From an uncultured Elusimicrobia bacterium (GTDB lineage Bacteria > Elusimicrobiota > Elusimicrobia > Elusimicrobiales > UBA9959), in NCBI GenBank assembly GCA_903873295.1, contig CAIQNV010000085.1, positions 1 to 42,931 on the forward strand: a DNA stretch of 42,931 bases, written 5' to 3'. A program made the translations under genes and the position numbers. The number at the start of each line of letters is the position of its first letter. Position 1 is the stretch's first letter. Below the pieces are notes generated by a model, which had not been told where the DNA came from, did no database searches, and saw only the letters and a program-made list of their open reading frames with translations. This document shows positions 14,375 to 30,557 of the stretch, in pieces.

Positions 14375-14433
14375 TTTTGATTATTCAGCGGCGGCGCGGG
14401 AACGGCGGAAAATATCGGTCCGAGAGGTTTAAA

Positions 14434-15726
14434 ATGGCACACAAGGCGACGCTTACCATAGACGGCAAGACGGTGGAACTTCCGGTCGTTGAAGGGACCG
14501 AGGGCGAACTGGCGCTGGACATAACCCAGCTGCGCGCCCAGACCGGGCTTATCACCTTCGACCCCGGCTATGGAAATACGGGCAGCTGCAAAAGCGCCAT
14601 AACGTTCATCGACGGAGAAAAGGGGATACTGCGCTACCGCGGAATACCGATAGAGCAGTTCGACAGGCCGAAGCCCGATTTCCTGGAAACGGCCATGCTT
14701 GTGATCTTCGGCCAGCTCCCCAATAAGGCCGACCTGGAAAGGTTCCGCGGGTTATCCGGCGCGAACTCGTATCTCGACGAGAACATGCGGCATCACTTCG
14801 AGGGTTTTCCCGTCAGCGCCCCCCCGATGGCGCAGCTTTCGGCGATGATAAACGCGCTTTCCTGCTTCCACCCGGAAGTGTTCAAGCTCGCCAACGACAG
14901 TTCCTTCGAAAGCGCGGCGGCGGGGATCATAAGCAAGATACGCACCATCGCCGCCTACTCCTACCGCAGGTCGAAAGGGCTGCCCCTGATGTATCCCAAC
15001 TCCAACCTGCGCTACTGCGCCAATTTCCTGCACATGATGTTCTCCATGCCCTATAAGGACCACGTCGTGGAGCCGGAAATAGAGGACGCCCTCAACCTGA
15101 TCTTCACGCTCCACGCCGACCATGAGCAGAACTGCAGCACGTCCACGGTCAGGATGGTGGGCTCCAGCAAGGCCAACCTTTTCGCCTCGGTCGCCTCCGG
15201 CGTCTGCGCGCTGTGGGGGCCGCTCCACGGCGGAGCGAACCTCGCCGTCATAGATATGCTCGAGGAGATCCACCGCGGGAACATGAAGCCCGAAAGGTGC
15301 CTGGAGCTCGCCAAGGACAAAACCAGCGGCTTCAAGCTCATGGGCTTCGGCCACCGCGTATACAAGAACTACGACCCGCGCGCGAAGATCCTCAAGAAGA
15401 CCTGCGACCGGGTTTTCGCTAAAATGGGGGTGCACGACCCGCTGCTCGAGATAGCCATGAAACTGGAGCAGCTGGCGCTTAAGGACCCGTATTTCATAGA
15501 GAAGAAGCTTTACCCCAACGTGGATTTCTACAGCGGCATAATAATGAAAGCCATAGGGATCCCCGCCAATATGTTCCCGGTCATGTTCTCCATAGGCCGG
15601 CTGCCCGGCTGGATAGCGCAGTGGAAGGAGCAGCACGACGAGCAGTCCACTAAAATAGCGCGGCCGAGGCAGGTCTACACCGGCGAAAAGATACGGGACT
15701 ATGTCCCGATGGGAAAAAGGAAATAG
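14434..15726 (+). CDS. gltA: Citrate synthase, hexameric GltA type
   Basis: This enzyme condenses acetyl-CoA with oxaloacetate to citrate. It has 430 residues, close to the E. coli enzyme. The catalytic residues are visible as H265 (GPLHGGAN), H307 (GFGHRVYK) and D364 (NVDFYSG), almost at the E. coli positions. The N-terminal beta segment (TFDPGYGNTGSCKSAITFIDG) is typical of the longer Gram-negative type. The ATG at 14434 follows GAGAGG at proper spacing; an in-frame extension to 14377 has no ribosome site. It has its own promoter and is followed 55 bases later by PEP carboxykinase. Confidence 0.96.
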   Translation: MAHKATLTIDGKTVELPVVEGTEGELALDITQLRAQTGLITFDPGYGNTGSCKSAITFIDGEKGILRYRGIPIEQFDRPKPDFLETAMLVIFGQLPNKADLERFRGLSGANSYLDENMRHHFEGFPVSAPPMAQLSAMINALSCFHPEVFKLANDSSFESAAAGIISKIRTIAAYSYRRSKGLPLMYPNSNLRYCANFLHMMFSMPYKDHVVEPEIEDALNLIFTLHADHEQNCSTSTVRMVGSSKANLFASVASGVCALWGPLHGGANLAVIDMLEEIHRGNMKPERCLELAKDKTSGFKLMGFGHRVYKNYDPRAKILKKTCDRVFAKMGVHDPLLEIAMKLEQLALKDPYFIEKKLYPNVDFYSGIIMKAIGIPANMFPVMFSIGRLPGWIAQWKEQHDEQSTKIARPRQVYTGEKIRDYVPMGKRK

Positions 15727-15781
15727 GCCGCCGGAAAAGCGCGGGCCGGCAAAGATACCGAAGAGCGGCTGGGAGGAAAAA

Positions 15782-17554
15782 ATGACAAAGCACACCGGAC
15801 TTCAGAACTGGGTTGAGGAGATGCGCGGGCTCTGCTCCCCCGATAAAGTAGTATGGATAGACGGCTCGGCGGAAGAGAAGAAAAGACTGGAGGAAGACGC
15901 CGTCGCCTCCGGCGAGGTGCTGCGCCTCGACGAGGAAAAGCTGCCCGGCTGTCTCTTTCACCGGACGAAAGGGAACGACGTGGCCCGCACGGAGCACCTC
16001 ACCTATATCTGCTCCCCGGAAAAAGACGACGCCGGCCCCACGAACAACTGGCTGCCGCCCGAAGAAGGGTACCGCAAAGCCTCCGAAATACTCAAAGATT
16101 CGATGAAGGGGAGGACGATGTTCGTCATTCCTTTTTCCATGGGCCCTGTCGACTCCGCTTTTTCAAAGATCGGGGTGGAGATAACGGACAGCCTCTATGT
16201 AGTGCTGAACATGCTTATCATGACGCGGACCGGAAGCAGGGTCCTGGCCAAGCTCGGGACCGAGGGCGGTTTCACGAAGTGCATGCACGGAAAGGCCGGC
16301 CTGGACGAGAACAAGCGCCTTATCCTCCATTTCCCGGAAGACAACGCCATCTGGAGCGTGGGCTCGGGCTACGGCGGGAACGCCCTGCTGGGGAAAAAAT
16401 GTCTTTCATTGCGCATCGCGAGCGCCCTGGCCCGGAAAGAAGGCTGGCTGGCGGAGCACATGCTGATACTCGGCCTCGAGCATAAGGACGGGCACATCGA
16501 ATACGTGGCGGCCTCCTTCCCCAGCGCCTGCGGAAAGACGAACCTGGCCATGCTGATCCCCCCCGAAGTCATGAAGGCCAAGGGCTACCGCGTCTGGACG
16601 GTCGGGGACGATATCGCCTGGCTGCGCGTAGGCGCCGACGGCAGGCTCTGGGCGGTAAACCCGGAGGCGGGCTTTTTCGGGGTCGCCCCGGGCACGAATT
16701 CAAAGACTAATCCCAACGCGATGGCCACGGTAAAAAAGAACACCATCTTCACGAACGTGGTGCTGGCCGACGACCACACGGTCTGGTGGGAGGGGGGGGA
16801 CGGCGAGCCGCCCGCCTCCGGGCTCGACTGGCAGGGGAAACCCTGGAAGCCGGGGACAAAGGACGCGCAGGGCAAAACGATAGCCGGCGCCCACCCGAAC
16901 AGCCGCTTCACGGCCCCGGCGTCGCAGTGCCCCTGCCTCTCCCCCAAATGGGAGGAGCCGCAGGGCGTGCCGATCTCGGCTATTATATTCGGGGGAAGAA
17001 GGGCCCGGCTGGCGCCGCTCGTCTATCAATCCACGAGCTGGGAGCACGGAGTTTACGTCGGAGCCACGATGGCCTCCGAGCGCACGGCGGCCCAGGTGGG
17101 CAGCCAGGGCGAGGTCAGGCGCGACCCCATGGCGATGCTGCCCTTCTGCGGCTACCACATGGCCGATTATTTCGCCCACTGGCTGGCGATGGGGAAAAAA
17201 GCGGCCAAGCCGCCGAAGATCTTCCACGTGAACTGGTTCAGGACGGATGAAAAAGGCAAATTCCTCTGGCCGGGCTACGGCGATAACGCCCGCGTTCTGG
17301 AGTGGATACTTCAGAGATGCCGCGGCGAGGGCAAAGCCGTCCAGACCCCGATAGGCCATGTTCCGACGCCCGACGCGCTGGACCTTGCCGGCCTCGACCT
17401 GCCCGCGGACGCGCTCGGGAAACTGCTGGAGGTCCGCGCCGACGAATGGCGGGCCGAAGCGGCGGACCATAAGGTGTTCTTCGATTCGCTGGGGCCGAAG
17501 CTTCCCGCGGAGCTGCGCAGGCAGAACGAGGAGCTTGTCAGGCGGCTCTCTTAA
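15782..17554 (+). CDS. pckG: Phosphoenolpyruvate carboxykinase, GTP-dependent
   Basis: It interconverts oxaloacetate plus GTP with PEP plus CO2 plus GDP, linking the TCA cycle to gluconeogenesis (or fixing CO2 in reverse). It has 590 residues, in the normal range for the GTP class. The kinase-1a P-loop with the reactive cysteine is FPSACGKTN (C250, K253 region). Other class signatures are NPEAGFFGVAPGT and FLWPGYGDNARVL near the C terminus. The ATG at 15782 is set by GGGAGG six bases upstream. It follows the citrate synthase gene by 55 bases with no terminator between, so the two are probably cotranscribed. Confidence 0.95.
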   Translation: MTKHTGLQNWVEEMRGLCSPDKVVWIDGSAEEKKRLEEDAVASGEVLRLDEEKLPGCLFHRTKGNDVARTEHLTYICSPEKDDAGPTNNWLPPEEGYRKASEILKDSMKGRTMFVIPFSMGPVDSAFSKIGVEITDSLYVVLNMLIMTRTGSRVLAKLGTEGGFTKCMHGKAGLDENKRLILHFPEDNAIWSVGSGYGGNALLGKKCLSLRIASALARKEGWLAEHMLILGLEHKDGHIEYVAASFPSACGKTNLAMLIPPEVMKAKGYRVWTVGDDIAWLRVGADGRLWAVNPEAGFFGVAPGTNSKTNPNAMATVKKNTIFTNVVLADDHTVWWEGGDGEPPASGLDWQGKPWKPGTKDAQGKTIAGAHPNSRFTAPASQCPCLSPKWEEPQGVPISAIIFGGRRARLAPLVYQSTSWEHGVYVGATMASERTAAQVGSQGEVRRDPMAMLPFCGYHMADYFAHWLAMGKKAAKPPKIFHVNWFRTDEKGKFLWPGYGDNARVLEWILQRCRGEGKAVQTPIGHVPTPDALDLAGLDLPADALGKLLEVRADEWRAEAADHKVFFDSLGPKLPAELRRQNEELVRRLS

Positions 17555-17594
17555 GCCGCGGCGGCCGCGGAGCGCCGGAAAAAGCCCGCGGCTT
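17553..17594 (+). terminator. Possible weak terminator after PEP carboxykinase
   Basis: A perfect 9-bp inverted repeat AAGCCGCGG / CCGCGGCTT starts at the stop codon of the gene. The loop is long and only TTT follows, so efficiency is doubtful. Confidence 0.3.
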
Positions 17595-17689
17595 TCGCGC
17601 CAGTATGCTAATATGTTCGTATATGGGCGGACTATAAAAGGCACATAACGGGACGCCGTCCGCCCCGCGAGCGCGCTGAGGTTAAATAT

Positions 17690-18367
17690 ATGAAAAACGA
17701 CCAGTCTTTTCTAAAGGATATTCTGCTGCAGATCCCTCCCGCCAATAAGAAGCTCAAGTCCTTGGCGGCCCTTTTGGCCGAGCGGCTGAAAAACGACCCC
17801 GATGATTTCTGGGCCTGGGATAATCTCGCGAACCTGTATTTCAGCGAGGGTTTCGTTCTTCAGTCGATAGACATCTACCACAAGGCTCTCAAGATCAAGC
17901 CCGACCTCCCGGTCGTCCAACTGCGCATAGGCATAGCTTATTACCGGCTGGCCTACCTCGGCAAAGCCATCCTCGAGCTGGAAAAGGCCGTCAGCATGGA
18001 CCCCGGCCTCGCCATGGCGCATTACTATCTGGGTTTCGCTTATTACCACAGGGGGGACTCGGACCGGTCTTTGGAGCATTTCCAGCGGGTGAAGGAGATC
18101 AGCCCGGAAACGCGGATCGTGTATTACCACATGGCGGAGGCTTATCTGCAGAAGAGGCGTTTCAGGGACGCTATCGAACTTCTGGAGAAACTGATCAAGG
18201 TCAGCCCTTCTTCGGCCACAGCCTGGTACAAGCTGGGCCTGGCTTACCAGGGGCTCTACATGAACATAGAGGCCGCCAACGCTTTCCGGGTGGCGCTCAA
18301 GTTCAATCCGCAGGATATGCGTTCGGAAAATATGCTGGAGCTGATCACCAACGTTCCGGGGATCTAG
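17690..18367 (+). CDS. TPR-repeat protein
   Basis: This 225-residue soluble protein is made almost entirely of tetratricopeptide repeats, about five copies from residue 35 on, with typical spacing. Visible units include DDFWAWDNLANLYFSEG, PVVQLRIGIAYYRLAYLG, MAHYYLGFAYYHRG and ATAWYKLGLAYQGL. TPR proteins are protein-protein scaffolds; the partner is unknown. It has no signal peptide. It stands between PEP carboxykinase and the convergent isocitrate dehydrogenase, with a shared terminator downstream. Any link to carbon metabolism is only positional. Confidence 0.85.
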   Translation: MKNDQSFLKDILLQIPPANKKLKSLAALLAERLKNDPDDFWAWDNLANLYFSEGFVLQSIDIYHKALKIKPDLPVVQLRIGIAYYRLAYLGKAILELEKAVSMDPGLAMAHYYLGFAYYHRGDSDRSLEHFQRVKEISPETRIVYYHMAEAYLQKRRFRDAIELLEKLIKVSPSSATAWYKLGLAYQGLYMNIEAANAFRVALKFNPQDMRSENMLELITNVPGI

Positions 18368-18394
18368 GAACGGGATATTTATCCTGCGATAAAG

Positions 18395-18421
18395 GGGCTG
18401 CTGAATTTTCGGCAGCCCTTT

Positions 18422-18422
<1 letters not shown>
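18395..18422. terminator. Bidirectional terminator between TPR gene and icd
   Basis: GGGCTGCTGAA and TTCGGCAGCCC (18395-18405 and 18408-18418) form a stem of about 10 bp with one G-U pair. TTTT follows on the plus strand and a three-T run on the minus strand. It serves the two convergent genes and touches the icd stop codon. Confidence 0.8.
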
Positions 18423-20734
<2,312 letters not shown>

Positions 20735-20742
20735 TTATACTT

Positions 20743-20772
20743 AGAATATTGAATAAGCGCCGGAGTTGTCAA
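20743..20772 (-). promoter_or_regulatory. Sigma-70 promoter of icd
   Basis: On the minus strand a perfect TTGACA (20767-20772) and TATTCT (20743-20748) are 18 bases apart. The predicted leader is about 90 bases. Confidence 0.65.
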
Positions 20773-20814
20773 GCCCGCTGGGAGCCGGAGCGCGCCCGCC
20801 CTGAAAATAAAATA

Positions 20815-20820
20815 TATAAT
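20815..20820 (+). promoter_or_regulatory. Consensus -10 element eight bases before the aconitase start
   Basis: A perfect TATAAT ends eight bases before the ATG, so transcription would start at or next to the start codon. No good -35 is seen at 16-18 bases. An AGGA is present in the short gap, so conventional initiation from an unseen upstream promoter is also possible. Confidence 0.4.
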
Positions 20821-20828
20821 ACAGGAAT

Positions 20829-22760
20829 ATGAAACAGAACATCATCGAAAAGATCCTTTCGGCCCATCTCCGCGAGGGAAGCCTCGGCGGCGGCGAGATC
20901 GGCCTGCGCATAGACCAGACCCTGACGCAGGACGCCACCGGCACCATGGCCTACCTGCAGTTCGAGGCCATGGGCCTGCGCGAGATAAAAACCGATCTGT
21001 CCGTTTCTTACGTCGATCACAATACGGTCCAGGTGGGGTTCGAGAACTCCGACGACCACAGGTACCTGCAGACCGTGGCCGCCAAATACGGCGTCGTTTT
21101 CTCCAGGCCGGGCAACGGCATCTGCCACCAGGTGCATTTGGAGCGCTTCGGCAAGCCCGGCACCACGCTGCTGGGGTCCGACAGCCACACCCCCACCGGC
21201 GGCGGCATAGGCCAGGTGGCTATGGGAGCCGGCGGCCTGGACGTGGCCGTGGCCATGGGCGGCGGCCTGTTCTATACCGCGGCCCCCAAAGTATATTTAG
21301 TGCGGCTGGCCGGGGAGCTCAAGCCCTGGGTGACCGCCAAGGACGTAGTCCTCAAAATGCTTGAGCTCCTGACCACCAGAGGCAACGTGGGCGTGATGCT
21401 GGAATACGGCGGGCCCGGCGTGAAGAAGCTCTCGGTGCCGCAGCGCGCCACCATAGCCAACATGGGGGCCGAGATGGGCGTGACCTGCTCGGTCTTCCCT
21501 TCCGACAATGTCACCGGAAAATTCCTGAAGGCCCAGGGCCGCGGGGCCGACTGGACGGAACTGAAGGCGGACCGGGGCGCGAAATACGCCAGGGTGATCG
21601 ATCTTGACCTCTCGTCGCTAGAGCCGCTGGCCGCCTGCCCGCACAGCCCCGGCATCATCAAAAAGATCTCCGAGCTGGAAGGCAAGCCGGTGGACCAGGT
21701 CTGCATAGGCTCCTGCACCAATTCTTCCTATAAGGACATGATGACGGTGGCCGCGATACTGAAGGGCCGCAAGGTGCACCCCGGCGTCAGCCTGGGCGTG
21801 GCGCCCGGCTCGCGCCAGGTGCTGCAGATGATGGCCCGCAAAGGCGCCCTGACGGACCTGCTGGACGCCGGCGCCCGCATACTGGAGAGCGCCTGCGGCT
21901 TCTGCATAGGCAACCACTTTTCCCCCAGGAGCGGCGGGGTGTCCATCCGCACCTCCAACCGCAACTTCGAGGCCCGCAGCGGCACGGCCGACGCGCAGAT
22001 ATACCTGACCAGCCCCGAGGTGGCCGCGGTGGCCGCCGTCACGGGCAAATTCACGGACCCGCGCGGGGCCGGCCTGGAATATCCCGCCGTAAAAGAGCCC
22101 GCCTCTTTCCTGGTGGACGACTCCATGTTCATAAAACCTTCCCCGGAGGGGGCGCGGACCGCGGTTTTCCGCGGCCCTAATATCGGAGAGCCGCCCAGGA
22201 ACGAGAAAATGCCCGAGAGCCTGAACGGCGCGGTGATGATAGTCGTAGGCGACAAGATAACCACCGATCATATCATGCCCGCCGGCGCCCGTTTGAAGTA
22301 CCGCTCCAACGTGCCGAAATACGCGCAGTACGTGTTCGAGAACGTGGACGGCGGCTTCCCGGCGCGCTGCCTCGCCGGGAAAGCGGCGGGCCTGCACAAT
22401 ATCATCGTGGCCGGCGAATCCTACGGCCAGGGCTCCAGCCGCGAGCACGCGGCCATGTGCCCGATGTACCTGGGCGTGAAGGCGGTGGCGGCCAGGTCCT
22501 TTGAGCGCATACACGCGGCGAACCTCCTCAATTTCGGCATAGCGCCGCTGACGTTCAGGAACCCGGCGGACAGCGCGGGCCTGCAGGCGGGCGACAAGCT
22601 TGCCTGCCCGGACTGGCGGGCCGCGGTGGCCGAGGGGAAACCGGTGCTGCTCAGGAACGGGCGCACCGGCGCCTCCATTGAGTGCGTCTGCGCGCTTTCA
22701 GAGCGGCAGCGCGCCATCCTGCTGGCGGGCGGGCTTCTGAACTATACCACCGGCGCCTAG
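20829..22760 (+). CDS. acnA: Aconitate hydratase, Aquifex-type
   Basis: Aconitase isomerises citrate to isocitrate through a [4Fe-4S] cluster. At 643 residues it is the short, Aquifex-type form rather than the roughly 890-residue AcnA. Cluster ligands are C296 (GSCTNSS), C356 and C359 (ACGFC). Other signs are LGSDSHTPTGGGIG near 116 and the C-terminal swivel domain with GESYGQGSSREHAA, which carries the catalytic serine and arginine region. It is divergent from isocitrate dehydrogenase, the next enzyme in the path. The 220 bases after it hold the promoter of the two-component island. Confidence 0.95.
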   Translation: MKQNIIEKILSAHLREGSLGGGEIGLRIDQTLTQDATGTMAYLQFEAMGLREIKTDLSVSYVDHNTVQVGFENSDDHRYLQTVAAKYGVVFSRPGNGICHQVHLERFGKPGTTLLGSDSHTPTGGGIGQVAMGAGGLDVAVAMGGGLFYTAAPKVYLVRLAGELKPWVTAKDVVLKMLELLTTRGNVGVMLEYGGPGVKKLSVPQRATIANMGAEMGVTCSVFPSDNVTGKFLKAQGRGADWTELKADRGAKYARVIDLDLSSLEPLAACPHSPGIIKKISELEGKPVDQVCIGSCTNSSYKDMMTVAAILKGRKVHPGVSLGVAPGSRQVLQMMARKGALTDLLDAGARILESACGFCIGNHFSPRSGGVSIRTSNRNFEARSGTADAQIYLTSPEVAAVAAVTGKFTDPRGAGLEYPAVKEPASFLVDDSMFIKPSPEGARTAVFRGPNIGEPPRNEKMPESLNGAVMIVVGDKITTDHIMPAGARLKYRSNVPKYAQYVFENVDGGFPARCLAGKAAGLHNIIVAGESYGQGSSREHAAMCPMYLGVKAVAARSFERIHAANLLNFGIAPLTFRNPADSAGLQAGDKLACPDWRAAVAEGKPVLLRNGRTGASIECVCALSERQRAILLAGGLLNYTTGA

Positions 22761-22984: not shown

Positions 22985-23404
22985 ATGAAAAAATCAACGA
23001 TACTTATTATTGACGATGACCAGGACATAGTCGAAGGGACGCGGGTCATGCTGGAGGCAAAAGGCTATTCCGTGCTGTCCGCCGGCGATTATGCGGCGGG
23101 GTTCGCGAAAATAAGGGAAGCGAAGCCGGACCTGATCATCCTCGACGCTATGCTCATGCTGAACGATAAATCGGGCCTGCAGCTTCCTACCGAGATCCGG
23201 AAGGAGCCCGCGATAGCCGGCATCCCCATTCTTATGATCACCGCTATAAACGATGGGCAGACCGGAGAGGAGTTCGCCCCCGGAACCGAGGACGAGAATC
23301 TCCCCATAGACGGATTTCTTAACAAGCCCGCGCGGCAGGAAGAGCTGTACCGGCAGATCGAACTGCTGCTGAAGATGAAGACGAGCAAATGGGCCGGGAA
23401 ATAG
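22985..23404 (+). CDS. Stand-alone response regulator receiver (first)
   Basis: A 139-residue single receiver domain with all key residues: the acidic pocket D10-D12, phosphoacceptor D54 (IILDAML), T86 and K114 (LNKPA). There is no DNA-binding output domain, so it must act by protein contact or as a phosphate shuttle. Compared with a classical receiver it has about 10 to 15 extra residues between T86 and K114 (GQTGEEFAPGTEDE), a loop also present in shorter form in the next gene. Its ATG has GAGAGGA upstream. It is the first gene behind the 22840 promoter. Confidence 0.9.
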   Translation: MKKSTILIIDDDQDIVEGTRVMLEAKGYSVLSAGDYAAGFAKIREAKPDLIILDAMLMLNDKSGLQLPTEIRKEPAIAGIPILMITAINDGQTGEEFAPGTEDENLPIDGFLNKPARQEELYRQIELLLKMKTSKWAGK

Positions 23405-23479
23405 TTTAAAGTTCTGAAAGGTATAATGCTTTTTTGCCGGTGGATTTAAGGATCATAGAAAGACAAGGACGGAGGGGCT

Positions 23480-23869
23480 ATGGCTAAAATACTTATAGTG
23501 GACGACGACCCTGATATAGTGGAGTCGATGCGCATAATCCTGGAAAGCTGCCGGCACACGGTAAAGGTGGCCAAAAGCGGCGAGGAAGGCCTTAAAGAGG
23601 CCGGCGCGGACAAATACGACCTTGTCATCCTGGACGTCATGATGGAAACCATGAGCACGGGTTTCGAAGTGGCGCGGAGCCTGCGGGAAAGCCGCGACAA
23701 TAAAGCCGTGCCGATACTCATGCTTACCGCCATAAAAGAAAGCACCGGCCTGGATTTCAAGAGCGAGGTGGGCGATAAAGACTGGCTGCCGGTGAACGCC
23801 TATCTTGAAAAGCCGCTGAAGCCGCACGAGCTCCTGCAGAAAGTAGAGTCGCTCCTTAAGGGGAAGTGA
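23480..23869 (+). CDS. Stand-alone response regulator receiver (second)
   Basis: A 129-residue receiver domain with D8-D10, phosphoacceptor D52 (VILDVMM), T83 and K111 (LEKPL). Like its neighbour it has no output domain and an extended loop before the conserved lysine (STGLDFKSEVGDKDW). It has a strong GGAGGGG ribosome site. The gap from the first receiver is 75 bases and contains a TATAAT at 23422 without a matching -35. It ends five bases before the first kinase gene and probably is its direct partner. Confidence 0.9.
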   Translation: MAKILIVDDDPDIVESMRIILESCRHTVKVAKSGEEGLKEAGADKYDLVILDVMMETMSTGFEVARSLRESRDNKAVPILMLTAIKESTGLDFKSEVGDKDWLPVNAYLEKPLKPHELLQKVESLLKGK

Positions 23870-23873
23870 GACC

Positions 23874-25271
23874 TTGGACGATACCAACTTAAAGCCCGCG
23901 GAAGGGCTGACGGAGAGGCTTTACTGGCTCATCCGGCTGCGCTGGGTCGCCGTGGGCGGCGTGTTCTTCACGGCCCTGTTCGCCGACAAGGCGCTGCATA
24001 TCCCGCTGGCCTTGGCGGCGCTTTATTCCATCGCCGGGGCCCTCGGCGTCTACAACCTCCTGTTCCTCCTGTATCTGGCCTGGTTCAGGGCGGCGGCCCG
24101 CCCGGACCTGCCGGCGCTCGCCAACCGTCTCGCCAACGCCCAGATCGCCATGGACCTGCTGGGCCTGACGGCGCTGCTGCATTTCTCGGGCGGCGTGGAG
24201 AACCCGTTCGCTTATTATTTCGTCTTTCACATGATAATAGCTAGCGTCCTGCTTTCCCGGCGCGCCAGCTACCTGCAGGCGACTTTCGCCGTCTTCCTTT
24301 TTCTGCTGATGGCCGGCCTGGAATATTCCGGGGTGTGGACGCATTACTGCGTAGCCGTCCAGGCTGCCGGCTGCCGGCGGGCCGATCTCATAAACCTGCT
24401 GGGCGTGGCCGCGGCTTTCACCAGCACGCTGTATATCGCCGTCTATATGGCCGGCTCCGTCTCGCTCAAGCTCAGGGAGAAAGAGGCGACCCTGCGCGCG
24501 GCGAACCTGCTGCTGAATGAAAAGGACCGCATCAAGAGCAACTACGTGCTGCGCGTGTCGCACGACATTAAGGACCACCTGGCGGCGATACAGGCCTGTC
24601 TCGACCCCGTGCTGCACGGGCTGACGGGCGAGCTTAAGCCGGCCCAGGAAAATCTGATACGCAGATCGTACGAGCGGACGGAAAAGCTTACGGTCTTCGT
24701 CAAAGCGCTGCTTGAAATAACCCGGATAAAGCTGAGCCAGAAAATGGAGACGGGGCCTTTCTCCCTCAGGAAGGCCGCCGAGAGCGCGGTTAATTTAGTG
24801 GAGGAGCGGGCCAAGGCCAAGAATATCAAACTGAATTTCGCGGTAGGCCCCGGGGTGGACGTGATCGTAGGGGCGCAGATCTACATCGAGGAAACCATAG
24901 CCAATTTCCTGTCGAATTCCATAAAGTACACCCCCGAGGGCGGCAGCGTGGACCTCATGATAGGGGACGCCGGCGCCTCGGTGCTGATACGGGTCAGCGA
25001 TACCGGGATGGGGATCCCCAAGGGCGACCTGCCTCATATCTTCGAGGAATTCTACCGCGCGAAGAACGCTAAGGCCGCGGAGCGGACCGGGACGGGACTG
25101 GGCCTTTCCATCGCCAAAGAGGTGGCGAAGAGGCACAATGGCCGCATCTGGGCTGAATCGCAGGAGGGGAAGGGCAGCATATTCTATCTCTCCCTGCCGA
25201 AAGAAGCCGCCGAGCCCGGCCGGTCGGGCGACGCAGGCTCGCCGCCCGGCTTACGGGTCTCCGGCGGATGA
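23874..25271 (+). CDS. Membrane sensor histidine kinase
   Basis: This 465-residue kinase has an N-terminal membrane domain of about six helices (residues 24-195, starting with LRWVAVGG). There is almost no periplasmic loop, then a dimerisation/phosphoacceptor domain with H230 (RVSHDIKDHLAAI) and a complete ATPase domain: N box around N344-N348, G1 box DTGMGIP at 376-382, and G2 box GTGLGLSIAKEV at 406-417. The start codon is TTG at 23874, five bases after the previous stop, with AAGGGGAAG as ribosome site; no ATG or GTG fits better. Signal sensing is probably within the membrane. It overlaps the next kinase by ATGA. Confidence 0.9.
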   Translation: MDDTNLKPAEGLTERLYWLIRLRWVAVGGVFFTALFADKALHIPLALAALYSIAGALGVYNLLFLLYLAWFRAAARPDLPALANRLANAQIAMDLLGLTALLHFSGGVENPFAYYFVFHMIIASVLLSRRASYLQATFAVFLFLLMAGLEYSGVWTHYCVAVQAAGCRRADLINLLGVAAAFTSTLYIAVYMAGSVSLKLREKEATLRAANLLLNEKDRIKSNYVLRVSHDIKDHLAAIQACLDPVLHGLTGELKPAQENLIRRSYERTEKLTVFVKALLEITRIKLSQKMETGPFSLRKAAESAVNLVEERAKAKNIKLNFAVGPGVDVIVGAQIYIEETIANFLSNSIKYTPEGGSVDLMIGDAGASVLIRVSDTGMGIPKGDLPHIFEEFYRAKNAKAAERTGTGLGLSIAKEVAKRHNGRIWAESQEGKGSIFYLSLPKEAAEPGRSGDAGSPPGLRVSGG

Positions 25272-27160
25272 AAGCGAACCGGCTAAAAACTATTTGGCGC
25301 GGCATGGGAACCGGCTTTAAGCTGACGGTGGTGGTTTGCGCCACCGCCCTGCTGACCATAAGCGTGTTCGCCTACGTGAGCGTCCGCTCGCACAGCGCGA
25401 GCCTCCTGGCGGAGGTCGAGCGCCACGCCAGCCAGCTCAGCGAATCGGTGCGCCTGAGCACCGAGTACGACATGCTGCACAACCACCGCGAGCTCGTCCA
25501 CGAGAGCATAAGGCGCATAGGCAACCAGCGCAGCATTCAGCGCATCCGCGTGCTGAACAAGGCCGGCAGCATAATCTATTCCTCCGACGCCGCCGAGATC
25601 GGGAGCATGGTGGACAAGAAGGGCGAGAGCTGCTACCTCTGCCACGCCGCCGGCCGGCCGCTGGAGCGGCTTGAAATGAAGGACCGCACGCGCGTGTTCC
25701 GCCCCGCTCCCGGCTCCTCCCGGATATTGGGCACCATCACCCCCATCTATAACGCCCCGTCGTGCTGGACGGCCGCCTGCCACGCGCACCCGCGGGAGCG
25801 CGTCGTGCTGGGGGTGCTGGACGTCACCATGCCTCTGGCGGAGGTGGACAAGGACATCCGGCGCGGCCAGCTGGAGATCGCCGTCTTCGCCCTGAGCGCC
25901 ATCCTCGCGCTGAGCCTGATCACCGGTTTTTTCGTGAAGCGCCTGGTAACCTCCCCGGTGGCCGAGCTGGTAGACGCCACCCGGCGCATCGCCGGCGGCG
26001 AGTTGGGCCATATTATCCCCGAGAGGGCCGACGACGAGCTGGGGCTGCTGGCCAAATCCTTCAACAACATGACGCATAAACTTTCCGAGGCGCGGCTGCA
26101 GCTGGTGCAGTCCGACAAGCTGGCTTCGCTCGGCAGGCTGGCGGCCGGGGTGGCGCACGAAATAAACAACCCGCTCACCGGCGTGCTGACCTACAGCAGC
26201 TTCCTGCTCAAGCACACCAAGGACAGGCCCGACCTGCAGGAGGACCTGCAGATAATAGTCCGCGAGGCCATACGCAGCCGCGAGATAGTGAAGAGCCTGC
26301 TGGATTTCGCGCGGCAGTCGGTGCCGAGAAAGGGCGAGGCGGACATAAACGCCATAATCGGCCGCGCCGAATCCGTGGTGGGCGGCCAGTTCGCGCTGAA
26401 CAATATCAAGGTGGTAAGGGAGCTCGACCCGGCGCTGCCGAGGATCAAAGCCGACGCCGGCCAGCTTGAGCAGGTTTTTATGAACCTGTTCGTGAACGCG
26501 GCCGACGCCATCGGGACCGGGGGCGGGGCGATCACGGTCAGCTCCTCCGCGCTGAAGCTGCCGCCCTCCGCCGCGGCGCAGATCAGGAAAGCGCTTTGCC
26601 CGAAGCGGCACAGCCTTATCGACGCCGGAACGCCCCTGGACGGCAAGCCGTCCGTGCGGCTCAAAGTGAAGGGGGCCGGCGCTGAAGGATTTCTCCACCT
26701 GAGCGCCATGTACGGCTCCGGCGTACAGCTTTGCAGCCTGCCGCCCGCGGCGGGGGGCCCGGCGCAGTACGCCTGCCCGGAATGCGCCGTTCCGCTGAAC
26801 AGCAAGGGCGCCGCCTGCCCGGCGTGCGGGGGCGCCGTCTACGCTTTCGAAGCGCCCCCCTGGGGAATGATCGAGGGCTGCGCCGCAAAAGGCTGCGGCT
26901 GGCGGCGCTGGCAGGGGGCGGAGGACGCCGGGAACCTGGAATTCGTGGAGCTGCGGATAAGCGACACCGGCTGCGGCATAGAAACGGAAAATCTCCAGAA
27001 GATCTTTGAGCCTTTCTATTCCACCAAGGGGCAGAAAGGCACGGGGCTCGGCCTGGCCGTCATCTGGGGCATAGTTGACAACCACGGGGGGACGATAAGA
27101 GTGGAAAGCAAAACAGGGGCCGGCACCACCTTCATCATCCGGCTGCCGGTGAACGCATGA
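25268..27160 (+). CDS. Haem-c-type sensor histidine kinase with a cysteine-rich insertion in the ATPase domain
   Basis: The 630-residue protein has a membrane helix (about 17-38), then a periplasmic sensor with a c-haem motif C122-YL-C125-H126 and a second, wider motif C166-WTAA-C171-H172. A second helix (about 203-223), a HAMP domain, and a phosphoacceptor domain with H297 (GVAHEINNP) follow. The ATPase domain has its N box at N406-N410, the G1 box DTGCGI at 566-571 and GTGLGLAV at 591-598. Between the N and G1 boxes, where about 25 residues are usual, lie about 150. These include C503-PE-C506, C517-PA-C520, C538 and C543, which resemble a zinc ribbon. It is probably a redox or ligand sensor. 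It overlaps both neighbours by ATGA. Confidence 0.9.
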   Translation: MKANRLKTIWRGMGTGFKLTVVVCATALLTISVFAYVSVRSHSASLLAEVERHASQLSESVRLSTEYDMLHNHRELVHESIRRIGNQRSIQRIRVLNKAGSIIYSSDAAEIGSMVDKKGESCYLCHAAGRPLERLEMKDRTRVFRPAPGSSRILGTITPIYNAPSCWTAACHAHPRERVVLGVLDVTMPLAEVDKDIRRGQLEIAVFALSAILALSLITGFFVKRLVTSPVAELVDATRRIAGGELGHIIPERADDELGLLAKSFNNMTHKLSEARLQLVQSDKLASLGRLAAGVAHEINNPLTGVLTYSSFLLKHTKDRPDLQEDLQIIVREAIRSREIVKSLLDFARQSVPRKGEADINAIIGRAESVVGGQFALNNIKVVRELDPALPRIKADAGQLEQVFMNLFVNAADAIGTGGGAITVSSSALKLPPSAAAQIRKALCPKRHSLIDAGTPLDGKPSVRLKVKGAGAEGFLHLSAMYGSGVQLCSLPPAAGGPAQYACPECAVPLNSKGAACPACGGAVYAFEAPPWGMIEGCAAKGCGWRRWQGAEDAGNLEFVELRISDTGCGIETENLQKIFEPFYSTKGQKGTGLGLAVIWGIVDNHGGTIRVESKTGAGTTFIIRLPVNA

Positions 27161-27987
27161 AAGACCAGCGGGACATACTCGCGATCGACGACGAGCCCGT
27201 GATCACCGGGGCTATCAGGAAGGTCTGCGCCGCGGAAGGCCTGTCGGTGGATACCGAAGAGGGGGCGGCGGCCGGCCTGGCCCGGCTCGAGGACAGCTCT
27301 TACCGCCTGATAATCTGCGACCTGATGATGCCCGGCGCGGGGGGGCTGGAGTTCCTGGCGGAAGCGGCGCGCCGGGGCGTGAGCGCCCCGGTGATCATCG
27401 CCACGGGCTACGCCACTCTGGAGAACGCGGCGCTCTCGCTGGCGCGCGGGGCCATAAATTTCATCCCCAAGCCTTTCACCGCCGAGGAGCTGCTGGCCGC
27501 CGTGCGCCTGGCCCTGCGCTGCGACCGGCTGCAGCGGGAGGCCGCGGCCCCTCCCGGCGCCGGGGCGCCGCCCGCTTACGCGCCCTGCCCGCCGGGGTAT
27601 TACCGCCTGGGCTGCCTGAGCTGGGCGAAGGTCGAGAGCGAGGGCTCCGTCCTGGTGGGGGCCGGCGGATTATTCCTCGGAGCTGTAGGGCCGCTCGGCG
27701 CTCTCGAGCTTTCGCTCCCCGGCGAGGAGACTATGCAGGGCGCCGCCTGCGCCGCGGCGGTTTCCGCGGCCGGCGACAGGCACCCGGTGCTGTGCCCGGT
27801 AAGCGGCAGGATAGTGGAAGTTAATGCCGGCGCCGCGGCGACCCCGGCGCTGGCGGAGAAAGAGCCGTATTCGGGCGGCTGGCTTTACAGGGTGCTGCCG
27901 TCGAACCTGCAGGCCGAACTGGGGCGCCTTACGGCTTGCGGCCCGGAGAGGATCGAGCCGGGCCAGGCCCGGCAGCAAAGGAGATAG
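27157..27987 (+). CDS. Response regulator with degenerate GcvH-like C-terminal domain (A)
   Basis: A 276-residue protein. Residues 1-122 form a receiver with D11-D12, phosphoacceptor D55 (IICDLMMPG), T83 and K105. After a proline/alanine linker, residues 145-255 resemble the lipoyl-fold GcvH protein of glycine cleavage: LGCLSWAKVESEGSVLVG, then a PVSGRIVEVN segment (214-223), then EPYSGGWLYRV. In GcvH the lipoylated lysine lies eight residues before the P of PVSG; here that position is a glycine (G206), so lipoylation is unlikely. It directly follows the haem kinase with ATGA overlap and is probably its cognate regulator. It is cytoplasmic, unlike the two downstream paralogues. Confidence 0.82.
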   Translation: MKDQRDILAIDDEPVITGAIRKVCAAEGLSVDTEEGAAAGLARLEDSSYRLIICDLMMPGAGGLEFLAEAARRGVSAPVIIATGYATLENAALSLARGAINFIPKPFTAEELLAAVRLALRCDRLQREAAAPPGAGAPPAYAPCPPGYYRLGCLSWAKVESEGSVLVGAGGLFLGAVGPLGALELSLPGEETMQGAACAAAVSAAGDRHPVLCPVSGRIVEVNAGAAATPALAEKEPYSGGWLYRVLPSNLQAELGRLTACGPERIEPGQARQQRR

Positions 27988-27990
27988 CTT

Positions 27991-29160
27991 ATGGTTATTT
28001 TGATCGTGCTGCTGTCGGTGGCTCTTTTCATACTGGCGGACCTCGCGGTGCGGGCGGTCATCGCCAGGAGCGGCCGCAACAGGCAGCTCCTGGAGCGGGA
28101 GGCCGCGCTGGCCGAGAGCCTGAAACTGGACTTCGCCCGGGAGGCTAAAACGCTCAAGCGCGCCGAGATAAAAGACCCCGCGGCGCGCATCCTCTGCGTG
28201 GACGACGAAGAGGTGATCCTCGACAGCTTCAGGAAGATCCTGGTGATGGACGGCTACAGCGTGGACACCGTGCAGACGGGACAGGAGGCCCTGGGGCTGA
28301 TACAGACCCGTGATTACGATTTTGTTTTCACCGACCTGAACCTGAAGGTGCCGGAGATGGACGGCGTGGACGTGGTCAAATCGGTGAAGCACATGCGCCC
28401 GGACATCGACGTGGCGATCATCACGGGCTACGCCACCGTCGAGACCGCCGTGGCCTGCATGAAGTACGGGGCGATGGATTATGTGCAGAAGCCGTTCACC
28501 GAAGGCGAGCTGCTGGCGTTCGTAAAAAAAGCGCTGATCAGGCGCAGGGACAATAGCCAGAAAGAGCTGACGCCGCAGGTGCGCATCACGCATTCCCCTG
28601 AAACCGGCGGCGGCCGGGCGGGGGAGTTCATCATTCCCGGCGGCGTCCTGATCTCCCCCGGCCATTGCTGGGCCGGCCTGGCGCAGGACGGGACGGTGAA
28701 GGTGGGCCTGGACGATTTTGCCAGGAAGCTTATAGGCCCGGTGGACGCCATAGAGTTCCCCCGGATCGGCCTGGCGGTAAAGGCGGGAGAGCCGCTGTTC
28801 ACTATCCGCCAGAAGCGCCGCGGCGCTCAGTTCCTGTCCCCGGTAAGCGGCCGGGTGGCGAAGACCAACCTGCCGCTGGGCGGGAATTGCGCGGCGCTGG
28901 AGCAGACGCCGTATCACGCCAACTGGATCTGCGTCATCGAGAGCGACAACCTGGACGCGGAGGTCCCGGCGCTCCGGATAGGAAAATCGGCCGTGGCCTT
29001 GTTCCAGGAAGACCTGGGCCTTTTCCGCGCGGCCATGAGGGAAGGCGGGAAAAACAGCGGGCGCAAAGACTCTCCGGGCGACGCGCTCTACGTGGGGGAG
29101 CTCGGTCAGCTGGACGACGCGCAGTGGGAGAAGATCGCGGGGGACTTCTTCCGGCGCTGA
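27991..29160 (+). CDS. Membrane-anchored response regulator with GcvH-like domain (B)
   Basis: This 389-residue protein has an N-terminal membrane helix (residues 2-24), a helical linker, and a receiver (about 66-185: D71-D72, phosphoacceptor D115, T145, K167). The GcvH-like domain (about 215-345) has HCWAGLAQDGTVKVGLDDFA, SPVSGRVAKTN and PYHANWICVI. The lipoyl-lysine position is R276; the adjacent residue is K275. Right after D115 the receiver has two extra residues (DLNLKVPEMDG, where paralogue C has DLKMPEMDG). The ATG follows the previous stop by three bases with AAGGAG upstream. A membrane-tethered receiver is unusual and suggests it meets its kinase at the membrane. Confidence 0.88.
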   Translation: MVILIVLLSVALFILADLAVRAVIARSGRNRQLLEREAALAESLKLDFAREAKTLKRAEIKDPAARILCVDDEEVILDSFRKILVMDGYSVDTVQTGQEALGLIQTRDYDFVFTDLNLKVPEMDGVDVVKSVKHMRPDIDVAIITGYATVETAVACMKYGAMDYVQKPFTEGELLAFVKKALIRRRDNSQKELTPQVRITHSPETGGGRAGEFIIPGGVLISPGHCWAGLAQDGTVKVGLDDFARKLIGPVDAIEFPRIGLAVKAGEPLFTIRQKRRGAQFLSPVSGRVAKTNLPLGGNCAALEQTPYHANWICVIESDNLDAEVPALRIGKSAVALFQEDLGLFRAAMREGGKNSGRKDSPGDALYVGELGQLDDAQWEKIAGDFFRR

Positions 29161-29278
29161 CGCCCGCCCGGGGCCGCCGGCCGCCGTCCACGGGCCGCGG
29201 TTGCCTTTTGTCATCTTCGCAATTGTCAAAAACAATTCTTCGGGCTTAATGTTAGGCATACCGGAACGCCCCGGCTAT

Positions 29279-29306
29279 TTGGTATCCTTGTTGGCATAAG
29301 TATAAT
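29279..29306 (+). promoter_or_regulatory. Internal promoter for the third GcvH-type regulator
   Basis: TTGGTA (29279-29284), 16 bases, then a perfect TATAAT (29301-29306). The 233-base gap 29161-29393 also has AATTGT-caaaa-ACAATT (29221-29237), a 6-bp inverted repeat that could be an operator. Confidence 0.5.
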
Positions 29307-29393
29307 CGCTTCTTGCGAATATGCCGCCGCTGCCGGGCCGACGCCCGCGTTCTGCCCGGCAGGGAAACTGATCAACGGCAAAAGAGAGGTTTT

Positions 29394-30557
29394 ATGGTCA
29401 TTCTGATAGTGCTGCTCTCGGTGGCGCTTTTCATACTCGCTGATATCGCGGTGCACGCCGTTCTAGCCAAAGCCGCCCGCAAAAGGCAGCGCCTGGAGCG
29501 CGAGGCGGCGCTGGCCGAAAGCCTGCGGCTGGACTTTACCCGCGAGGCCAAGACCCTGAAGCGCGCGGAGGTCAAGGACTGCGCGGCGCGGATCCTCTGC
29601 GTGGACGACGAGCAGGTGATCCTCGACAGCTTCAGGAAGATCCTCGTGCTGGACGGCTGCAGCGTGGACACCGTGCAGACGGGGCAGGAGGCCCTGGGGC
29701 TGATACGGACGCAGCACTACGACTTCGTCTTCACCGACCTTAAAATGCCGGAGATGGACGGCGTGGAGGTGGTGAAGTCCGTCAGGCACATGCGGCCCGA
29801 CATAGACGTGGTCATAATCACGGGCCACGCCGCCGTGGAGACCGCCGTGGAATGCATGAAGCACGGGGCCATGGATTATATACAGAAGCCGTTCACCGAA
29901 GAGGAGCTGCTGGCGTTCGTCAAGAAGGCCATATTCAGGCGGAAAGACAATATGGACAGGCAGCTCAAGCCGGCGGTGCGGATAACCCATTCTCAGCAGG
30001 AGGGGGGCTCCCGGCCGGGAGAGTTCAGCATTCCCGGCGGCATTTTCATCTCGCGCGGGCACTGCTGGGCCGGCCTGACCCAGAACGGATCGGTAAAAGC
30101 GGGGGTCGACGATTTTGCCCTGAAGCTTCTCGGGCCCATCGACGCCATAGAGCTGCCGGCGGCCGGAATACAGGTGCGGGCGGGGGAGCCGCTGTTTAAA
30201 ATACGGCAGAAGCACCGCAGCGCCCGGTTCCTGGCGCCGGTCAGCGGCCGGGTGGTGCTGGTGAACCAGAAGCTGGGGGCGGGCTGCCAGGCCCTGCTCG
30301 GCACGCCGTATCACGAGAACTGGGTCTGCATGATAGAGGGCGACAACCTGGACGCGGAGCTGCCGGCCCTGAAAATAGGCAGATCGGCGGCGGCGCTGTT
30401 CCAGGAGGACTTCGAGCGCTTCCGGGCGGCCATGCGGAAGCTGGCCGCCGACGGGAAGGCCGAGGCCCGCGCGGACGGCGCCGTGTACACCGGAGAGCTG
30501 CAGCAGCTCGGCGACGCGGACTGGGAGCGCCTGGTCGGTGAATTATTCGGGCAGTAG
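29394..30557 (+). CDS. Membrane-anchored response regulator with GcvH-like domain (C)
   Basis: A 387-residue close paralogue of gene B; the two look about 70% identical from end to end. The layout is the same: membrane helix 2-24, receiver with D71-D72, D115, T143 and K165 (ordinary DLKMPEMDG loop), and GcvH-like domain 213-340 with HCWAGLTQNGSVKAGVDDFA and APVSGRVVLVN. The lipoyl-lysine position is a histidine (H274), again preceded by lysine (K273). I use the ATG at 29394 with AAGAGAGG upstream; an upstream in-frame extension to 29313 lacks a ribosome site and would precede the conserved start. It has its own promoter, so it may be expressed apart from B. Confidence 0.88.
   Translation: MVILIVLLSVALFILADIAVHAVLAKAARKRQRLEREAALAESLRLDFTREAKTLKRAEVKDCAARILCVDDEQVILDSFRKILVLDGCSVDTVQTGQEALGLIRTQHYDFVFTDLKMPEMDGVEVVKSVRHMRPDIDVVIITGHAAVETAVECMKHGAMDYIQKPFTEEELLAFVKKAIFRRKDNMDRQLKPAVRITHSQQEGGSRPGEFSIPGGIFISRGHCWAGLTQNGSVKAGVDDFALKLLGPIDAIELPAAGIQVRAGEPLFKIRQKHRSARFLAPVSGRVVLVNQKLGAGCQALLGTPYHENWVCMIEGDNLDAELPALKIGRSAAALFQEDFERFRAAMRKLAADGKAEARADGAVYTGELQQLGDADWERLVGELFGQ

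Follow-up and report, generated by a model that had tools for sequence, protein, structure and literature searches.

Receiver-GcvH fusion proteins encoded with a haem-motif histidine kinase in an uncultured Elusimicrobia bacterium: candidate regulators of an NrfD-type quinol/cytochrome complex

Introduction

What could a phosphorylated receiver control when the domain fused to it has the fold of a metabolic carrier protein? The question is raised by four genes of an uncultured Elusimicrobia bacterium, a sensor histidine kinase with c-type haem motifs and three response regulators (RR1, RR2 and RR3), which lie with all four reading frames intact at positions 25268-30557 on the forward strand of contig CAIQNV010000085.1 (assembly GCA_903873295.1). 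The whole stretch of 42,931 nucleotides that was analysed is referred to here as the window. Two-component systems usually act on genes, and response regulators with non-DNA-binding outputs are a known class. The three regulators share with this class an intact receiver and a non-DNA-binding output, and differ from it in that the output has the fold of GcvH, the H protein of glycine cleavage; no description of receiver-GcvH proteins was found in the openly licensed PubMed Central (PMC) papers searched.

An earlier note, made from the sequence of the window, had suggested that phosphorylation controls docking of the GcvH-like module on a partner, possibly at the membrane. Here we conclude that the window holds the regulatory part of a larger system. 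The association of receiver-GcvH regulators with the genes of a quinol/cytochrome complex is well supported and, as a tentative reading to which we give a probability of roughly 0.45, the four genes would make up the regulatory half of an operon, conserved in relatives, for redox signalling and electron transfer, in which the receivers place GcvH-like docking modules on that complex. The likely partner, an NrfD-type respiratory complex, is newly proposed here and goes beyond what the earlier note inferred, to which it was invisible because its genes are not in the window. A conserved operon with disabled carrier folds, one of them membrane-bound, beside a respiratory complex makes direct phosphorylation control of respiration at the post-translational level testable, and it offers a candidate role for GcvH-like proteins without the lysine, which can easily pass for H proteins of the glycine cleavage system.

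Results

The evidence for a partner comes from relatives of the locus. In several phyla the usual unit consists, in this order, of genes for an iron-sulfur (FeS) protein, an NrfD protein, a multihaem cytochrome, the haem-motif kinase, an RR1-type and an RR3-type regulator. For the wider survey, the GcvH region of RR3 was scanned against one genome per species and the best 80 of 169 matches were used, 10 of the 80 loci being the same records as in our survey of the phylum; the phyla named were Ignavibacteriota, Bacteroidota, Chlorobiota, Gemmatimonadota, Elusimicrobiota, Verrucomicrobiota, Kiritimatiellota and Pseudomonadota. A kinase gene (above 190 bits) stands upstream of RR3 in all 64 loci with at least 2.7 kb of upstream DNA, and RR1 in 60 of them, so the kinase and receiver-GcvH genes do co-occur, as the earlier note had asked of a genome survey. 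FeS (above 90 bits) and NrfD genes (above 100 bits, both NrfD types included) are both found upstream in 53 of the 54 loci with at least 5.5 kb of upstream DNA, and the multihaem cytochrome carries 13 CxxCH motifs in 41 of 49 cases and 8 to 12 in the rest. In the single exception without FeS and NrfD genes, locus L149 (Opitutae), terminal-oxidase genes (COX1, FixO and cytochrome c; L149 3372-6078) lie about 0.6 kb upstream of the kinase-regulator set. In L160 (Lysobacterales) the same kinase and regulators accompany an NrfD of HmcC type and a cytochrome with 5 haems.

Within the window's own phylum, eight of the 11 other Elusimicrobiota loci (L046-L054, L079 and L080) show the full six-gene order. 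L046 has the first five genes followed by the contig end, L047 has the operon without RR1, and L079 has RR1 and RR3 only, on a 4-kb contig. The order in genome G019 is kinase, RR1, FeS, NrfD, 13-haem cytochrome, RR3. Across 340 genomes of the phylum the RR3 profile scored above 180 bits in 12, the next match, with matches listed by E-value, being at 62 bits; an NrfD orthologue (at least 65% identity) was likewise found in 12, with a thirteenth genome matching at 36%. Both were present in 11 genomes (Fisher p ~1e-18, without correction for relatedness). The genomes that break the pairing are that of the window, which has the regulators without an NrfD orthologue, and G206, in which NrfD, kinase and RR1 are present and the contig ends before RR3.

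As to the complex itself, the FeS protein of G019 is HmcB-like (309 bits, cut-off 420) and HybA-like (244 bits, cut-off 263), and its NrfD is HybB-like (355 bits, cut-off 450) and HmcC-like (270 bits, cut-off 550), all below the curated NCBIfam cut-offs, so that no family cut-off is reached. The unit resembles Hmc and other NrfD-type complexes in these two subunits, at scores under the cut-offs, and differs from them in its 13-haem cytochrome and its receiver-GcvH regulators. The NrfCD proteins of M. roseus (Mros1572 and Mros1571) are proposed to act as a quinol:acceptor reductase that supplies multihaem cytochromes of the periplasm (PMC3534657), and a second paper describes similar complexes in MBNT15 (PMC9386147). 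A word search of the two texts did not find 'histidine kinase' in either, and found 'glycine cleavage' once across both, there on amino-acid use.

Turning to the regulators, the Pfam scan, which covered 35 open reading frames of the window, bore out the earlier proposal of three receiver-GcvH fusions. RR1 (27157-27987, forward strand; GCV_H match 27619-27918) is a soluble-looking receiver with a GcvH-like domain, and RR2 (27991-29160, forward strand; GCV_H match 28663-28992) and RR3 (29394-30557, forward strand; GCV_H match 30057-30362) each consist of an N-terminal hydrophobic helix, a receiver, a GcvH-like domain and a C-terminal extension. Response_reg matched all three with E values from 4e-21 to 4e-32 and GCV_H with E values from 1e-11 to 7e-15 (45-55 bits against a cut-off of 22.2), and phmmer searches of Protein Data Bank (PDB) sequences with RR2 and with the isolated RR1 domain returned H proteins. 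An AlphaFold2 model of RR3, built with 61 related sequences (mean pLDDT, the predicted local distance difference test, 82.8; pTM, the predicted template modelling score, 0.63), begins with a helix and continues through a receiver and a beta-rich GcvH part to a helical end. Foldseek placed H-protein chains at ranks 1-2 for this model (3hgb, TMt 0.82; 3a8j_E, 0.91) and the E. coli H protein 3ab9 at rank 4 (TM 0.91), with receivers ranked in between. Profile, sequence and structure comparison thus agree on a GcvH fold in the C-terminal regions, and the Pfam profile, phmmer, the fold comparison and recurrence in relatives lead us to reject chance or an annotation artefact. No DNA-binding domain was found by Pfam in RR1, RR2 or RR3.

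The output domains of the window have the same fold as GcvH (PF01597) and detectable sequence homology to it, yet they and most of their relatives lack the lipoyl lysine, are fused to a receiver and do not adjoin gcv genes. The lipoyl-lysine position holds G in RR1, R in RR2 and H in RR3, whereas the true GcvH of the same genome carries an ESVKS motif and is encoded on another contig in a gcvT-gcvH-gcvPA cluster (gcvT and gcvPA being identified by eye from the reading frames). As the earlier note had it, gcvP, gcvT and lipoate ligase are missing from the window; none of these families was found by Pfam among the 35 reading frames. In a wider alignment that kept 203 of 207 domains (four short or low-scoring ones were left out), the lysine is present in 19/19 true GcvH proteins, 0/75 RR1-type domains, 11/83 RR3-type domains (a set that includes at least one RR1 domain, L080_10528), 1/8 divergent RR3-type domains, 0/13 receiver-free anchored domains and 0/5 domains with a Cys motif. 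Because the lysine is lost in the window domains and in most of the family, a lipoate carrier role is unlikely, and it was set aside for most of the family on the basis of these counts. Among 41 genomes of the genus and order, GcvH matches of second rank that lie in open frames (47-66 bits) are limited to the window genome (three) and G019 (two). A further GcvH with a full score is present in each of G017 and G023, and in G021 and G024 there are only partial matches, of 22-23 bits, across a stop. A near parallel is LbpA of the Hdr-like sulfur oxidation pathway (PMC6067878), a GcvH-like protein tied to a redox system and not to glycine cleavage; LbpA has a strictly conserved lysine, two conserved cysteines and hdr-like genes as neighbours, whereas most of the present domains have lost the lysine and are encoded next to FeS, NrfD and cytochrome genes.

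The receivers keep their catalytic residues. The Asp pair, the phospho-acceptor Asp and the Lys are invariant in 61 RR3-type and 54 RR1-type proteins, the Thr is invariant in the former and at least 90% conserved in the latter, and all of these residues are kept in the window regulators. Conservation of the catalytic residues across the receiver-bearing family suggests real phosphorylation control. Hydrophobic N-terminal segments occur in RR2, RR3 and all 61 aligned RR3-type proteins. These segments and the loss of the lysine fit the phosphorylation-controlled module at the membrane that was proposed earlier; RR1 looks soluble. RR2 and RR3 are paralogues sharing 71% identity; in RR2 two extra residues follow the phospho-acceptor Asp (codon 28333-28335). 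In a tree, window RR2 and RR3 group with the RR3 of G019 (support 99), window RR3 being the closer to it (94).

The kinase (25268-27160, forward strand, 630 amino acids), delimited from its sequence, Pfam matches and hydrophobic segments, contains HAMP, HisKA (GVAHEINNPLTG) and HATPase_c domains, and the c-type haem motifs ascribed to it earlier are present. They are CYLCH (25631-25645) and CWTAACH, of the form CX4CH (25763-25783), 44 residues apart and flanked by the two hydrophobic segments of the protein. All 63 kinase homologues above 600 bits have one CxxCH and one CX4CH, with a spacing of 44 residues in 62 and of 43 in one. Both motifs fall in a sensor domain (25379-25876, forward strand) that is predicted to be periplasmic and whose family profile has a weak likeness to a chemoreceptor sensor, 3b42, and to PF21563. 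The structure 3b42, labelled a chemotaxis protein and which we take to be a c-type haem sensor of Geobacter, was the top PDB sequence match of the profile, with a whole-sequence E of 2.7e-4 and weak values of 5.6 and 0.71 for its two stretches alone. PF21563 was matched by 14 of 25 members of the sensor family at E up to 1 (best 1.9e-6), and the window sensor itself matched nothing better than sCache_4 at E 0.065. Compared with these periplasmic chemoreceptor sensors, the present one sits on a histidine kinase and has two motifs, CxxCH and CX4CH. Searched by fold, the kinase model matched kinase cores, with WalK-YycH and ZraS in the first rows, and no sensor fold was assigned.

The HATPase_c domain is interrupted by a Cys-rich, zinc-ribbon-like insert (26594-26935, forward strand), recognised from its homologues, which may bind zinc, judging by its conserved Cys and His residues; the kinase of G182 can be aligned without it. 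Homologues of the insert occur in about 60 further genomes of the phylum at 29-39% identity, mostly in frames of about 140-210 amino acids. They are seen standing alone, doubled, or heading a GltA-like oxidoreductase (L058 6377-6829; L055 7931-8794 and 9646-11463). The oxidoreductase gene with an insert homologue adjoins a ferredoxin-NADP reductase-like gene, the functions being read by eye. The kinase-regulator system is absent from L055-L057, loci that had been taken for their weak matches to the kinase insert.

Some GcvH-like proteins beside FeS and NrfD genes have no receiver. They either show an apparent N-terminal membrane helix or are soluble with a Cys motif (L134 12640-14209; L145 11937-13481; L152 12761-14463; L110 1640-2299), and FeS/NrfD genes adjoin all 15 of those with an apparent helix, all of them from loci chosen for an RR3 operon. 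A second cluster in L134, L145 and L152 has the order FeS, NrfD, anchored receiver-free GcvH-like protein, soluble Cys-motif GcvH-like protein and haem-motif kinase. In L134 its NrfD is of HmcC type (410 bits) and is directly followed by the anchored protein, whose N-terminus is HmcD-like (22.9 bits, 6e-5), and a sigma-54 NtrC-type activator follows the kinase. A domain tree of 96 of the 203 rows, made by a quick method from few columns and subject to a long-branch warning, sets true GcvH apart (Shimodaira-Hasegawa-like approximate likelihood ratio test, SH-aLRT, 97), gives RR1 as a separate lineage (99) and joins the RR3 types to the receiver-free anchored proteins (85). The two groups also share their C-terminal extension: of the 12 genomes with an RR3, 11 are matched by the receiver-free profile up to positions 215-221 out of 226, and G209 only to 172, whereas true GcvH proteins usually end at 150-180. 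This grouping and the shared extension point to an origin of the RR3 type by receiver insertion into an anchored GcvH-like protein, which is probably how it arose. In the window's phylum, the matches listed by that profile search contained no conspicuous anchored form without a receiver. HmcD was considered as the source of the RR3 membrane helix and ruled out, the helix giving no match to it.

The window's own genome is a special case. In the window, no hit to the FeS, NrfD and cytochrome genes was better than E 0.2, and a remnant of them there or in the gap between RR2 and RR3 was rejected for want of a significant match. An NrfD orthologue was not found in the genome, which is about 90% complete. 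With RR3 duplicated and this orthologue not found, the cassette looks orphan here: the complex may not be strictly required, it may lie in the unassembled part, or the cassette may be decaying, and it is possible that the cassette has been retargeted. At E up to 1e-3 the genome yielded a single NrfD match, C45, which did not come up as an orthologue; it belongs to a set of a different kind (L174 7304-9735), with a 4-haem cytochrome, an FeS-like reading frame read by eye and NrfD.

Discussion

In other bacteria, genes for a membrane respiratory complex almost always accompany the relatives of this cassette, an arrangement that suggests direct switching of electron flow rather than of genes. In the mechanism that we infer, which involves haem binding, redox sensing, phosphotransfer, docking on NrfD and an effect on electron flow, two haems, covalently attached within a Cache-like sensor, would let the kinase read the redox state of the periplasmic electron-transfer chain, as the motifs and weak homology of the kinase suggest. 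The kinase would then phosphorylate the soluble RR1 and the RR3 type, whose intact catalytic residues and place in the gene order are consistent with this, with the N-terminal helix presumably anchoring the RR3 type to the membrane on the cytoplasmic side. The output, by sequence and predicted fold, is a GcvH-fold domain that in most members lacks the lipoyl lysine, and with that residue missing it is probably a binding module, neither a lipoate carrier nor a DNA binder. Phosphorylation might make the module bind to, or detach from, the NrfD-type quinol/multihaem-cytochrome complex on its cytoplasmic face, and this change could throttle quinol oxidation post-translationally. A bolder generalisation, that lysine-less GcvH-like domains are general cytoplasmic docking subunits of NrfD/Hmc-type complexes, converted into a phospho-switch by receiver insertion so that the haem kinase gates flow from quinol to multihaem cytochrome without transcription, is a conjecture that we hold with rather less confidence.

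Several observations count against an electron-flow switch. The gene neighbourhood is equally compatible with transcriptional control through an unseen partner, the regulators of L149 are paired with terminal-oxidase genes, and the window genome has the regulators without the complex having been found. The 80 surveyed loci, being the best of 169 matches, are biased to close relatives. The likeness of the sensor to 3b42 is weak, the HmcD match in L134 lies under the curated cut-off of 34 bits, and the RR3 helix did not match HmcD at all. Finally, the lipoyl position is occupied by a lysine in 11 of the 83 RR3-type domains, and a lysine occurs within two residues of it in 34 of the 83, in 12 of the 75 RR1-type and in 8 of the 13 receiver-free domains.

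Alternatively, the receiver-GcvH proteins could act as a signalling hub, binding another regulator such as a sigma-54 activator so that the output is transcription of respiratory genes and the GcvH fold a generic binding module. That the related haem-motif kinase of L134 precedes a sigma-54 NtrC-type regulator, and that the window retains its regulators though the complex was not found, would fit such a role; the three regulators showed no DNA-binding domain, however, the recurrent six-gene order includes no separate transcription factor, and receiver-free GcvH-like proteins adjoin NrfD genes, so we regard a hub as unlikely, if credible. A structural or assembly role would have the GcvH-like domains as constitutive subunits or chaperones of the complex and receivers that only tune assembly or stability. 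The anchored protein that follows HmcC-type NrfD in L134, with its sub-threshold HmcD-like N-terminus, speaks for this, but the catalytic residues kept throughout the receiver-bearing family suggest phosphorylation control and make a purely structural role improbable.

Clear GcvH homology and the glycine cleavage cluster of the genome might instead tie the domains to the metabolism of lipoate or glycine, where they would serve as decoys or compete for lipoyl ligase or glycine-cleavage partners. This is hardly to be expected of a family that has mostly lost the lipoyl lysine, whose conserved neighbours are electron-transfer genes, and whose RR3 type occurs in only 12 of the 340 genomes of the phylum against 282 matching its GcvH profile. 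As for the window alone, its cassette could be a decaying remnant in which kinase and regulators persist without function now that the complex is gone. That FeS, NrfD and cytochrome genes were not found in the window, nor an NrfD orthologue in the genome, and the insertion beside the phospho-acceptor of RR2 would be explained in this way, yet four intact reading frames, kept catalytic residues and a regulator that was duplicated and retained speak against it, and at about 90% completeness the complex may have been missed; decay therefore seems to us a poor bet. Control of an NrfD-type complex through GcvH-like docking modules is the reading we favour.

Neighbouring genes

The gene junctions only partly agree with the earlier note, which took overlapping genes as support for one functional unit: kinase and RR1 overlap by ATGA, but RR1 and RR2 are 3 bp apart and RR2 and RR3 233 bp apart. 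The latter gap (29161-29393, forward strand) contains a promoter-like site ahead of RR3, TTGGTA-16-TATAAT at 29279-29306, which is a consensus match only and suggests separate expression of RR3. ATG 29394 is a likelier start for RR3 than TTG 29313, since the homologues start there.

Immediately upstream lies a module of two single-domain receivers and a PilS-like kinase (22985-25271, forward strand), assigned from sequence, Pfam and relatives, and the PilS-like kinase gene overlaps the haem kinase gene by ATGA. This PilS-like kinase was found in 10 of 60 relatives; of these only G019 also carries the cassette, there on a separate contig, and the module is probably not an original part of the cassette. 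Further upstream, at window positions 14377-22760, genes for citrate synthase, phosphoenolpyruvate (PEP) carboxykinase of the GTP type, monomeric isocitrate dehydrogenase and aconitase are clustered.

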